A stretch of DNA of 64,000 bases from Cognatishimia sp. SS12 (GTDB taxonomy: Bacteria; Pseudomonadota; Alphaproteobacteria; Rhodobacterales; Rhodobacteraceae), in the NCBI RefSeq assembly GCF_028369055.1, contig NZ_JAQNCZ010000001.1, positions 806,001 to 870,000 on the forward strand. Direction: 5' to 3'. Positions 30,387 to 34,460 of this stretch are shown in pieces (the first letter of the stretch is position 1; every line of letters begins with the position of its first letter). A program made the position numbers and the translations under genes. The notes beneath the pieces were generated by a model. It saw nothing but the letters and a program-made list of their open reading frames with translations. It had not been told where the DNA came from and did no database searches.

Positions 30387-30442
30387 TTTTGTTTTTTCCT
30401 AATTTCTTGTATGTGGCGAATGGGTTAGCGAAAGTTGCGCAT

Positions 30443-31348
30443 ATGGACTGGGATAAGCTTAGAATCTTTCACGCTGTTGCGGATGCGGGCAGCCTCACAC
30501 ATGCGGGCGATGCGCTGCATCTGTCGCAATCGGCGGTCAGTCGCCAGGTGCGCGCCCTCGAAGAGAGCCTGAACACCACGCTGTTTCACCGCCACGCGCG
30601 CGGACTGATTCTTACTGAACAGGGGGAATTGCTGTTTGACGCGACCCGCGCCATGTCCAAGCGGCTGGATGCCGCTTCGGCCCGCATTCGCGACAGCGAA
30701 GAAGAGGTCTTTGGCGAATTGCGCGTGACCACCACGCTGGGCTTTGGCACCCTCTGGCTCGCCCCACGGCTGCATAAGCTTTATGAAAAATACCCGGACC
30801 TCAATATCGACCTGATGCTTGAGGAAAAGGTGCTCGACCTGCCCATGCGCGAGGCTGATGCCGCGATCCGCATGAAAGAACCCAGTCAGGCCGATCTGAT
30901 CCGCAAACGCCTGATGAGTGTGCGCATGCGGCTTTATGCGACGCAGGATTATCTGGATCGCCAAGGCACGCCGGAAACCATGGACGATCTGGTAGACCAT
31001 CGCCTGATTTGCCAGAACATCGACGCCACGCAGGTCAGCGCCAGCTCTGCCTTGACGCAATCGATCCTGACCCATGACATTCCGTCGCGACTTATGGTGA
31101 ACAATTACTTTGGCGTCTTACAGGCGGTGCTGCACGATCTGGGCATTGGCATCCTGCCCGATTATGTGGTCGAAGAATCCCCGGATCTGGTGCGCGTCTT
31201 CCCTGACACGGAAAGCAGCGAAGTGCCGGTCTATCTGGCCTACCCCGAAGAATTGCGCCAATCCAAACGCATTCAGGCGTTCCGCGATTTCATTCAGGAA
31301 GAGATCCAGCTTCACCGCAAATTGCTGAAAGAACAGGGCAACGTGTGA
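30443..31348 (+). CDS. LysR-family transcriptional regulator
   Basis: A 301-residue LysR-type regulator. The winged HTH is at residues 4-62 (FHAVADAGSLTHAGDALHLS, then QSAVSRQVRALEE); the effector-binding periplasmic-binding-like domain follows from about 90. Start: the ATG giving MDWDKLRIF, the usual LTTR opening; an upstream in-frame start would add 18 residues within the promoter region. It diverges from iorAB, so aryl-pyruvate oxidation is a possible target, although this particular LTTR type is common in Rhodobacterales next to other genes and may act elsewhere. Confidence 0.9.
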   Translation: MDWDKLRIFHAVADAGSLTHAGDALHLSQSAVSRQVRALEESLNTTLFHRHARGLILTEQGELLFDATRAMSKRLDAASARIRDSEEEVFGELRVTTTLGFGTLWLAPRLHKLYEKYPDLNIDLMLEEKVLDLPMREADAAIRMKEPSQADLIRKRLMSVRMRLYATQDYLDRQGTPETMDDLVDHRLICQNIDATQVSASSALTQSILTHDIPSRLMVNNYFGVLQAVLHDLGIGILPDYVVEESPDLVRVFPDTESSEVPVYLAYPEELRQSKRIQAFRDFIQEEIQLHRKLLKEQGNV

Positions 31349-31398
31349 GCCATGCGCCACATGCATATCGGCTTTGACGCTTTCGGCGTCAGATTATC

Positions 31399-31427
31399 TT
31401 GAAAGTTTTCAAACTGACCACTATTTC
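31399..31427 (+). promoter_or_regulatory. Promoter with palindromic -35 for a candidate small RNA
   Basis: TTGAAA (31399-31404) and TATTTC (31422-31427) are exactly 17 bases apart. The -35 is the left arm of a perfect inverted repeat TTGAAA-GT-TTTCAA (31399-31412), so it may be an operator too. Transcription would begin near 31434. Confidence 0.45.
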
Positions 31428-31433
31428 ACCTCT

Positions 31434-31518
31434 CGAAGGCGATGATTGCTGAAAAGCGCATCATCTTCATACCTCCCTGTTGGACTTCGGCCGAGCTATT
31501 CGCTCGGCCTTTTTTTTG
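31434..31518 (+). ncRNA. Candidate small RNA or attenuator leader
   Basis: Between the LysR gene and the dioxygenase gene a predicted transcript of about 85 nt has a promoter at one end and a strong intrinsic terminator at the other. It can form a first hairpin (GATGAT at 31441-31446 with ATCATC), then a single-stranded linker containing CCTCCC, which could pair with ribosome-binding sites, then the terminator hairpin. This architecture fits a trans-acting RNA of the anti-Shine-Dalgarno kind known in alphaproteobacteria, though the repeated CCUCCUCCC of those families is not present. Alternatively it is an attenuated 5' leader of the dioxygenase gene, which begins 65 bases after the terminator. 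Confidence 0.4.
31489..31518 (+). terminator. Strong intrinsic terminator
   Basis: An eight-bp stem GGCCGAGC/GCTCGGCC (31489-31496 with 31502-31509), loop of five, followed by nine T residues. It lies 140 bases after the LysR stop and 65 before the next gene. Confidence 0.9.
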
Positions 31519-31582
31519 GCTGCATTGTTTTTTGCCGACAAGGCCCCATGTTGCCAATGCGAGGAAACAGGAGCCGAAAAAT

Positions 31583-32188
31583 ATGACCGCGCGACGCAAC
31601 TTTTTAAAACTGACAGCCGCCACCGGCCTGATGGCCGCGACCCCAGCAATGGCAGCCGTTGTCACCCCCAAAGCCACTGAAGGGCCTTATTACCCAAAGC
31701 CCGGCATGCGGTTTGACGATATCGACAATGACCTGGTGAAAATCGCCAGCAAAGTGATCGAAGCCGGGGGCGAGGTCATCCGCCTGACCGGACAGGTCAT
31801 GACCAAGGACGGCACAACAATCGAAGGCGCGCGTGTCGAAATCTGGCAAACGGATGCCAATGGCCGCTATCTGCACACGGGCGAGCGCAGCGCACAGCCG
31901 CGCGATGCTGCCTTTCAGGGCTTCGGTCACGACATCACCGGCCCCGACGGCCGCTACAGCTTTCGCACCATCAAGCCGGTGGCCTACCCCGGACGCACGC
32001 CCCACATCCACGTAAAGGCGTTTGTGGGCAGAACAGAGCTGACAACGCAATTCTATCTGGATGACGACGCGCAGAATGGCGCTGACCGGATCTACAGCCG
32101 CATGACACCCGCAGAACGCGAAGCCGTGACCATGCGCTTTTCCGTGGTCGACGGGCTGCCACAGGCCACGGTCGACATCGTGCTTTAA
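31583..32188 (+). CDS. Tat-exported intradiol ring-cleavage dioxygenase-like protein
   Basis: A 201-residue protein of the protocatechuate/catechol dioxygenase (intradiol) fold. The first 25 residues are a Tat signal (RRNFLK, then a hydrophobic stretch ending PAMAA), so it acts in the periplasm, unlike classical cytoplasmic enzymes. The four non-haem Fe(III) ligands are present: Tyr96 (GRYLH), Tyr135 (AYPGR), His141 and His143 (PHIHV). It is shorter than PcaG or PcaH and has no partner subunit nearby. The substrate is unknown. The ATG at 31583 is preceded by CAGGAG and starts the signal peptide; an in-frame upstream ATG would run through the terminator hairpin. Confidence 0.85.
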   Translation: MTARRNFLKLTAATGLMAATPAMAAVVTPKATEGPYYPKPGMRFDDIDNDLVKIASKVIEAGGEVIRLTGQVMTKDGTTIEGARVEIWQTDANGRYLHTGERSAQPRDAAFQGFGHDITGPDGRYSFRTIKPVAYPGRTPHIHVKAFVGRTELTTQFYLDDDAQNGADRIYSRMTPAEREAVTMRFSVVDGLPQATVDIVL

Positions 32189-32300: not shown

Positions 32301-34460
32301 ATGCAAGATCCAGAAATCACCGAAGACGTCATTGCAGCACACGGGTTCACCCCCGAGGAATATGCAGAGGTGATCAACATTCTGGGCCGCGACCCGACAT
32401 TCACCGAAATGGGTATTTTTTCGGCGATGTGGAACGAACATTGTTCCTACAAATCCTCCAAGAAATGGCTACGCACCCTGCCCACCGAAGGCCCGCAGGT
32501 GATCTGCGGCCCCGGTGAAAACGCCGGCATCGTTGATATTGGCGACGGTCAGGCTGTGGTCTTCAAAATGGAAAGCCACAACCACCCATCGTATATCGAA
32601 CCTTACCAAGGTGCGGCCACAGGCGTGGGCGGCATTCTGCGTGACGTGTTTACCATGGGCGCGCGCCCCATTGCGGCAATGAACTCTCTGTCCTTTGGTG
32701 AAACTTCACATCCGAAAACCAAACAATTGGTCAACGGCGTGGTCGAAGGCATCGGCGGCTATGGCAATTGCTTTGGCGTTCCGACCGTCGGCGGCGAAGT
32801 CCGTTTTCACCCGGCCTATAATGGCAACTGTCTGGTCAACGCCTTTGCTGCCGGTTTGGCGGACAGTGACAAGATTTTCTACTCGGCGGCTTCGGGCGTC
32901 GGTATGCCTGTTGTGTATCTCGGCGCAAAAACCGGGCGCGATGGCGTCGGCGGGGCGACCATGGCCTCCGCAGAGTTTGACGACACCATCGAAGAAAAGC
33001 GCCCCACCGTTCAGGTGGGCGACCCCTTCACCGAAAAACGCCTGATGGAAGCCACGCTGGAGCTGATGCAGACCGGCGCTGTGATTTCGATCCAGGATAT
33101 GGGCGCAGCAGGTCTGACCTGCTCAGCTGTGGAAATGGGTGACAAAGGCGGTCTGGGCGTACGCCTTGATCTTGAAAACGTGCCGCAGCGCGAAGAGAAC
33201 ATGACCGCCTATGAAATGATGCTGTCTGAATCACAAGAACGCATGCTGATGGTTCTGAAACCAGAGCTGGAAGAAGAAGCGCGCGCGGTCTTTGTGAAAT
33301 GGGATCTGGATTTTGCCATCGTCGGTGAAACCATCGCCGAAGACCGCTTTTTGATCATGCACAACGGCGAAGTCAAAGCAGACCTGCCACTGTCCAAACT
33401 CTCCTCCACCGCGCCAGAATATGACCGCCCCTGGGTGGCCACCCCGGCGGCCGAAGAATTGGCCGACGTGCCTGAGATTGACGCGATTGACGGGCTGAAG
33501 GCGCTGATTTCCTCGCCCAACTATGCGGGCAAACAATGGGTCTATGACCAGTATGACTCCATGGTGATGGCCGACACCGCGCGCGGCCCTGGCAAGGGCT
33601 CTGGTCTGTTGCGGGTGCATGGCACCGGCAAGAAACTGGCCTTCACCTCTGATGTGACCCCGCGCTATGTCAAAGCCAACCCGGTTGAAGGCGGCAAGCA
33701 GGCCGTTGCCGAGGCCTATCGCAACCTCACTGCTGTGGGGGCAAAGCCGCTGGCCACCACCGACAACATGAATTTTGGCAACCCTGAAAAGCCCGAGATC
33801 ATGGGGCAATTCGTTGGGGCCATTCAGGGCATCGGCGAAGCGGTCAAAGCGCTGGATATGCCCATCGTGTCGGGCAACGTCTCGCTTTACAATGAAACCG
33901 ACGGCAAAGGCATTCTGCCAACGCCAACCATCGGGGCCGTGGGCCTGATTGCCGCAAATGAAGAGCCAATTGATGGCGAGGTCCGCGAAGGCCATGTTGC
34001 CCTGCTGATCGGCGAGACCATCGGGCATCTGGGGCAATCCGCCCTGCTGGCCGAAGTGTTCAACCGCGAAGAAGGCGACGCGCCTGCGGTGGATCTGGCG
34101 GCCGAAAAGCTGAATGGCGAATTCATCCGCAACAACCGCGACATGATCAAAGCGTGTACCGATCTGGCCGACGGTGGCCTGGCGCTGGCCGCGTTTGAGC
34201 TGGCCGAACAGGCGGGCGTTGGCGTGGTGCTGGATGCCGCAGACACCGCTGCATTGTTTGGCGAAGATCAGGCGCGTTACCTGGTGGCCTGTAACTTTGA
34301 TCAAGCCGAAGAGCTGATGACCCGCGCCGCCGCTGCAGGCGTGGCGATCCAGTCGGTGGGCAAATTCACCGGCGATGTGGTGCGCTTTGGCAATTCCGAA
34401 GCCGCGCTGGCAGAGCTGGCGCAGATCTTCCGCAGCAGTTTCGCTGCCGCGGTCGCCTAA
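32301..34460 (+). CDS. purL: Phosphoribosylformylglycinamidine synthase subunit PurL
   Basis: PurL (719 aa) makes formylglycinamidine ribonucleotide from FGAR, ATP and ammonia in purine synthesis. This is the small form that works with separate PurS and PurQ, neither of which is in the window. [13 protein letters not shown] contains the active-site His47; two AIR-synthase-like halves follow, the first with [11 protein letters not shown] and [12 protein letters not shown], the second from about residue 425. AGGGGAC precedes the ATG. It is followed within 4 bases by the cysteine-rich gene, and further down by bolA and grxD, an order common in alphaproteobacteria. Confidence 0.97.

Follow-up and report, generated by a model that had tools for sequence, protein, structure and literature searches.

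The small RNA locus, its identity and its conservation

Within the window—the whole 64,000-nucleotide stretch of DNA that we analysed—a small RNA locus occupies the + strand between the stop codon of a LysR-type regulator gene at 31348 and the start of an intradiol dioxygenase gene at 31583. The LysR frame is open from a TTG at 30389, with the homologous start at the ATG at 30443, giving a gene of 30443..31348 (+ strand; Pfam HTH_1 and LysR_substrate). The TAT-type dioxygenase gene (31583..32188, + strand; Pfam PF00775), which we regard as a neighbour and not as part of the system, is followed by purL (32301..34460, + strand; Pfam AIRS, AIRS_C and FGAR-AT_linker), a downstream neighbour that serves as a synteny marker.

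The RNA gene would cover 31433..31517 (+ strand, about 85 nt), with its start placed by aligning the published SorY start onto the window, one base away from the original estimate, and its end placed at the terminator; a transcript of about this length lying wholly between genes, as the original prediction had it, fits both positions. It consists of a 5' hairpin (31435..31468, + strand), a pairing linker CATACCTCCCTGTTGGACT that carries an anti-Shine-Dalgarno seed (31468..31486, + strand), and an intrinsic terminator with T8 (31489..31517, + strand). A terminator scan recovered the strong terminator that had been described here, with a stem of 8 pairs at 31489-31509 followed by 8 T, and the CCTCCC-bearing linker likewise lies where it had been placed. 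Folding of the RNA from 31430 to 31520, proposed earlier as a check, gave -31.7 kcal/mol (z -2.94), with 1 of 200 shuffles equally good; in this fold, and also in an RNAalifold consensus, the CCUCCC is partnered in a 2-bp CC/GG mini-helix round UGUU.

No Rfam family matches the window at curated thresholds. An E-value search returned SorY (RF02651) at 31436-31517, across model positions 1-83 of 83, with 61.9 bits (E 2.2e-12), which falls below the gathering cut-off of 111 bits—a cut-off that is reached by 1 of 295 family genomes (G059, C4:1632645, 115 bits), at the published R. sphaeroides locus. In G059 the SorY-model match lies at 1632645 and the match at the place of SorX at 2598232; since these positions agree with the published SorY start at 1,632,642 and SorX 5' end at 2,598,224 (PMC6238624), we took this genome as R. 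sphaeroides 2.4.1. Its gene order is IOR-LysR-sRNA-purL, and the window has the same order plus the dioxygenase. Judged by place and sequence, the window gene is a SorY orthologue despite failing the Rfam cut-off: it shares with R. sphaeroides SorY the synteny, linker, terminator, a candidate promoter whose predicted start falls on the homologous base and predicted TRAP-transporter targets, and differs in its diverged 5' hairpin sequence and its sub-threshold Rfam score. SorY, studied in R. sphaeroides, thereby gains a counterpart in a roseobacter-type relative, and the comparison reveals which of its parts are conserved. StsR of R. sphaeroides had been our first candidate as an RpoH-driven small RNA and was dropped once Rfam pointed to SorY.

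A DNA search with 31380-31530 found matches in 107 of 119 same-family genomes and in 1 of 75 others searched, some of which span only the linker and terminator at ~80% identity and may be SorX. The sequence ACCTCCCTGTTGGAC was unchanged in 58 of 59 loci (29 best DNA hits plus 30 best SorY-model hits), as the original prediction had anticipated for a conserved CCUCCC linker in an RNA gene. Across 144 oriented loci—a set that contains duplicates (thirteen locus pairs are identical) and 80 of at least 118 linker-selected loci—125 had a LysR gene no more than 500 nt upstream (among the 136 loci with room, 122 had it and 14 lacked it), and 92 had purL no more than 5 kb downstream (91 among the 133 with room). 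Together with the Rfam SorY/SorX matches, the breadth of the DNA matches and the retention of the 5' hairpin bear out the earlier proposal of a small RNA with an anti-Shine-Dalgarno linker.

Conservation of the hairpins presents a more mixed picture. In 126 of the 129 unique orthologues the first 38 nt fold more stably than their own shuffles (mean -14.0 vs. -7.1 kcal/mol), a control that leaves the shared ancestry of orthologues in place, and the 5' hairpin is at the same time the most variable part of the RNA, its sequence having diverged. For covariation we used alignment A1, from which three of the 84 non-redundant rows (L177 and the Sulfitobacter rows L036 and L061) were left out, leaving 81, and in which the linker is invariant partly by construction, at least 118 source loci having been chosen by linker. 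RNAalifold on A1 recovered the terminator, 2 of whose 7 predicted pairs show compensatory changes, and the 2-bp helix, but not the 5' hairpin. The earlier expectation of conserved hairpins thus stood for 5' folding and for two terminator pairs, and did not stand for the 5' hairpin in the consensus fold. The CCUCCC was fully open in 0 of the 129 orthologue folds, part of it always being paired, and on average 67% of ACCUCCCUGUUGGA was unpaired.

Other descriptions of the same DNA can be weighed against this conservation. A SorX- or alphaR8 (MmgR/SisA)-type RNA in place of SorY would share the ACCUCCCUGUUGGAC linker and terminator plan of SorX, whose model (RF02784) scores 42.4 bits here, under its cut-off of 46.6. 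SorX in R. sphaeroides is processed from a 3' UTR, and the genome of the window carries its own SorX elsewhere on another contig (G000:C5:380322, 71.7 bits, over cut-off), so the window gene is not SorX. As for the alphaR8 RNAs (MmgR, SisA-D; Rfam suhB, RF00519), reported to combine a weak hairpin, a single-stranded CCUCCCU core and a terminator, the core and terminator plan are again held in common; the suhB/MmgR model reaches only 24.7 bits at the window locus, and sisA, whose linked gene encodes an N-formylglutamate amidohydrolase, is not described beside LsrB in the available text (PMC12559287). We consider an assignment to either type very unlikely. The original prediction had also entertained attenuation in a leader of the dioxygenase; in such a leader, be it of that gene or of purL, the terminator would stop transcription unless a signal allows read-through. 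The transcript is indeed directed at the dioxygenase, with the terminator 65 nt before the gene start. This reading falls because all 144 oriented loci keep the RNA and none shows the dioxygenase, a count in which 133 loci, eight congeners among them, had room for the gene to be seen and 11 were too short to judge; the linker-to-purL distance, where purL was found, varies from 112 to 4290 nt, and SorY of R. sphaeroides is reported to have its own promoter and a mapped start (PMC6238624). The attenuator is largely refuted, and we give it hardly any probability. A small coding RNA, finally, would use the ATG at 31442, which opens a frame that runs into the dioxygenase (ORF 31442-32188); that ATG sits inside the 5' hairpin, the part that varies most among orthologues, which themselves lack the dioxygenase, and the chance of a coding function is close to nil.

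Between the sRNA and purL the dioxygenase was seen in the window genome and in none of the eight congeners examined. Four Sulfitobacter loci (L036:861-948, L061:7710-7797, L084 and L095) carry an identical linker with a different 5' hairpin (CCCGAAG...CCGGG), with no upstream LysR found at L036, L084 or L095 and with L061 too short for judging; their RNAs are perhaps a separate SorY relative. An Alteromonadaceae-labelled contig (L097) has the SorY linker at its very end and is perhaps a misbinned Rhodobacterales contig.

Promoter, upstream box and LysR-type regulator

The letters on which a promoter had been proposed, TTGAAA at 31399-31404 and TATTTC at 31422-31427 with a 17-nt spacer, are present, and in this respect the proposal stood; a sigma-70 scan was silent, and the RpoH-type pattern CTTGAA-N16-nCTAnnT is the better fit. 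We accordingly describe the candidate promoter as RpoH-like, CTTGAA-N16-ACTATTT at 31398..31426 on the + strand (31398-31403 and 31420-31426), on the basis of sequence and orthologue anchoring. Among 114 unique orthologues with a LysR gene upstream, which define all promoter and box counts given here, CTTG-N17-20-TA anchored 98, with a spacing of N20 in 93 of these and an identical T two bases past the TA in 98/98.

The perfect inverted repeat around the -35 (TTGAAA-GT-TTTCAA), which had been put forward as a sign of regulated expression, exists in the window and is present in only 2 of the 114 orthologues; as an operator it is therefore not conserved. The conserved element is instead a box ~36 nt further upstream of the -35: a VtlR/LsrB-box-like sequence of the form GCAT-N3-GG-N3-T (GCATATCGGCTTT; 31363..31375, + strand), found in 79 of 114 orthologues compared with a shuffle mean of 1.4 and maximum of 5 (50 shuffles). 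The published VtlR form, GCAT-N3-TG-N3-T, a single base away from the window box, which has GG in place of TG, shows a much weaker excess (9 of 114; shuffle mean 1.9, maximum 5). The box lies 35 or 36 nt from the -35 in 72 of the 74 orthologues where both were found. Column by column, the information content averages 0.89 bits within the box, 0.42 in the stretch from there to the -35 and 0.10 over the 25 most distal upstream columns. Overlapping the box is an inverted repeat TTTGACGC-N-GGCGTCAGA (31373..31393, no strand assigned), also picked up by the terminator scan, which occupies the place of ATGCTGC-N-GCGGCAT half sites in relatives; the strict form of that pattern occurs in 31 of 114 orthologues, with a maximum of 1 in shuffles. 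The window's LysR-IOR intergenic region yielded no such box.

Relative to the predicted start at 31433, the box spans -70 to -58. The abcR1 LsrB box of S. meliloti is reported at -61 to -49, and abcR2 of that species is reported to have an RpoH1 promoter close to CTTGAA-N16-CCTATAT (PMC8844928).

The LysR-type protein encoded upstream has as its best PDB match 9HH1 (E 1.9e-75; next 6e-30), the structure of A. tumefaciens LsrB (PMC11975290). In the reciprocal direction, the best match of LsrB was the SorY-adjacent LysR both in the window genome (43%, E 3.7e-76; next 8.2e-37) and in R. sphaeroides G059 (43%, E 2.8e-74; next 4.7e-36). A 76-row tree separates LsrB, 7 Rhodobacterales and 48 other-family LysR proteins from 20 paralogues with moderate branch support (91/73, the bootstrap not having settled), and A. 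tumefaciens LsrB nests among the other-family proteins. On this sequence evidence the LysR upstream of the sRNA is an LsrB/VtlR orthologue. The title of an earlier paper reportedly calls VtlR highly conserved among alphaproteobacteria. Orthologues outside Rhizobiales, as identified by these comparisons, disagree with the statement, in the part of the source available (section 31), that LsrB is unique to Rhizobiales (PMC11975290). The sRNA gene thus stands directly downstream of an LsrB orthologue and has an LsrB-type box, the arrangement of an AbcR-like module.

The cysteines of LsrB are rarely retained in these proteins: the C273 position is A in 119/119 Rhodobacterales proteins and C in 0/48 from other families, and the C144 position is C in 2/119 and 5/48, respectively. 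Another cysteine (HRLICQ) is common to 99 of the 119 Rhodobacterales orthologues.

Predicted targets

We searched nine genomes of the genus for the anti-seed followed by a start codon (AACAGGGAGG-N3-10-ATG) and identified 10 sites besides the sRNA gene, 5 of which precede genes for TRAP DctP binding proteins (of which four resemble one another in sequence), the other five not being transporters; a reversed control pattern gave 0 sites in the same genomes. The single site in the window genome precedes an AraC-like regulator (named by eye).

We additionally calculated pairing energies between the linker and gene start regions. In the window genome, the mean pairing energy is -17.1 kcal/mol for nine DctP start regions, compared with -11.6 for 92 control ORFs (p = 3.5e-6), and in R. 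sphaeroides nine DctP regions average -17.6 vs. -13.9 for 37 controls (p = 0.006). DctP genes have stronger Shine-Dalgarno sequences generally (p = 0.00045); with Shine-Dalgarno-matched controls the difference persisted in both the window genome (7 DctP vs. 18 controls, p = 0.0015) and R. sphaeroides (5 vs. 9, p = 0.012). Of 200 seeds with shuffled flanks, 25 did as well in the window genome and 3 in R. sphaeroides; in the former genome the preference for DctP beyond the CCUCCC core is not clearly specific.

The best of the nine R. sphaeroides DctP sites reaches -24.2 kcal/mol, below all 37 controls. For the protein encoded there, all 139 residues supplied could be aligned to PDB 2HZK (E 3.1e-90). 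We take 2HZK to be TakP; the entry itself says SmoM. SorY is reported to affect takP mRNA in R. sphaeroides (PMC6238624). A possible takP counterpart in the window genome (L333) has the same first codons and pairs moderately, at -16.8 kcal/mol. The candidate targets, as judged from complementarity, are TRAP-transporter solute-binding proteins.

These observations suggest a mechanism in which an RNA of ~85 nt would start near 31433 from its own promoter and end at the terminator (31489-31517). Its linker, complementary to extended Shine-Dalgarno sequences, would pair at ribosome-binding sites, probably with the help of Hfq and chiefly on mRNAs of TRAP-transporter solute-binding proteins, and the resulting repression may lower organic-acid uptake under stress, by analogy with SorY and takP in R. 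sphaeroides. Two inputs probably act on transcription of the gene: a core promoter of the RpoH type, presumably read by a sigma factor of that kind, and activation by the LsrB/VtlR-type LysR, which would bind at the box at 31363-31375. We hold it highly probable that the locus is the sorY gene of a roseobacter-type Rhodobacterales member, with TRAP targets, an RpoH-type promoter and LsrB input.

The place downstream of LsrB in other families

A model built from 81 SorY orthologues (R1) was run on 48 of 57 LsrB-type loci (E 1.2e-65 or better, own family left out). It matched 28 of the 48 at E < 1e-3 and 35 at E <= 1, and the best match at those 35 loci lies on the LysR strand downstream of the LysR gene (at L245 the distance is blurred by an interrupted LysR frame, and at L229 the match is to the terminator only); L242 carries one further match on the opposite strand. 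Among 20 LysR paralogue loci there was none at E < 0.05, the best being 0.067. Thirty aligned RNAs from these other families have ACGTCTCCCAGACGTGAAGCCTCCCTGTT and the terminator in common, and at the 25 of 48 loci scanned with Rfam no family exceeded its cut-off (best SorX 43.2, suhB 35.1 and SorY 35.0 bits).

From alignment A3 of 30 R1 matches we built a second model (R2), whose scores at those same loci are not independent. R2 matched at E <= 0.001 in 57 of 115 class genomes. Counting best R2 matches, with the weakest secondary ones left out, 37 of the 57 genomes that have an LsrB-type LysR (own family excluded) carry the RNA on the strand of that gene, 117-511 nt downstream of it, where in each case it is the best R2 match of the genome, and 20 have no RNA there; of the 43 genomes with R2 at 55 bits or more, 11 have the RNA elsewhere or show no LsrB-type LysR. 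Against the window gene, R2 scores 24.9 bits.

AbcR (ar15, RF02345) was considered as the identity of the LsrB-adjacent RNA in these families and rejected, with 0 of 115 class genomes over cut-off and one weak match (E 0.008) away from the contig of LsrB; the window genome has no ar15 match either. In the Rhizobiales-type order of G187, ar15 exceeded its cut-off in 7 of 199 genomes, and an LsrB-type LysR precedes the RNA on the same strand at 9 of the 12 such loci fetched; R2 matched ar15 loci weakly (best E 0.025). AbcR1 and AbcR2 are located between SMc01226 and lsrB in S. meliloti (PMC3712013). They resemble the window RNA in their slot beside LsrB, on the same strand at the fetched loci, as well as in anti-Shine-Dalgarno motifs, transporter targets and an LsrB box (abcR1) or RpoH1 promoter (abcR2), as reported (PMC8844928). 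They differ in sequence, in the two tandem copies of S. meliloti, and in targets, ABC transporters for AbcR compared with TRAP transporters for SorY.

We somewhat favour the interpretation that, in alphaproteobacteria, the position downstream of LsrB/VtlR is an ancient slot housing an anti-Shine-Dalgarno sRNA that LsrB activates and that shuts down solute uptake. Its present forms would be SorY in Rhodobacterales, AbcR in Rhizobiales and, elsewhere, an unnamed RNA that has ACGTCTCCCAGACGTGAAGCCTCCCTGTT and a terminator and takes no Rfam family over its cut-off. The competing view, in which the window RNA is a sigma-factor-driven SorY, the upstream LysR is unrelated and the box serves something else, seems to us doubtful, though it has observations on its side. 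SorY has been placed in an RpoE/RpoHI/RpoHII network in which LsrB is unnamed in the accessible text (PMC8307010); the window protein is missing the LsrB cysteines, its box is one base off the VtlR consensus, and upstream of the R2-type RNAs of other families an LTTR-like repeat is found at 14 of 35 loci only (shuffles mean 0.6, maximum 3), 21 being without the pattern. Against this view stand the near-constant distance of the box from the -35, the lack of such a box in the LysR-IOR region and the recurrence of the LysR-sRNA gene pair in other families. LsrB/VtlR is, moreover, reported to drive abcR1 (PMC8844928, PMC7486931), although in S. meliloti 1021 lsrB was reported to have no effect on AbcR (PMC7486931).

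If the ancient-slot interpretation is true, SorY would be under the control of both LsrB and RpoH, and the signal for LsrB may vary between orders, given that nearly all Rhodobacterales proteins examined lack the A. tumefaciens LsrB cysteines. The slot offers a testable reason why anti-Shine-Dalgarno RNAs recur together with LsrB, and would join three literatures, on SorY and photooxidative stress, on AbcR, LsrB and host interaction, and on alphaR8 RNAs. A literature search, to which subscription papers were mostly beyond reach, found no paper joining SorY to VtlR or AbcR; one Salmonella paper is said to mention SorY once and LsrB three times, and another reportedly mentions both SorY and MmgR. 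What is new here is that the LysR upstream of SorY is, by the comparisons above, an LsrB/VtlR orthologue, with a SorY-like RNA slot in other families.

Strong R2-type RNAs were also observed away from an LsrB-type LysR, at G170:C15, at G406:C12 (two copies) and in G131, G123, G144, G169 and G386, and these are possibly unlinked copies of the unnamed RNA. At L205:2601-3185, three tandem R1 matches lie 3' of the LsrB-type LysR of G158.
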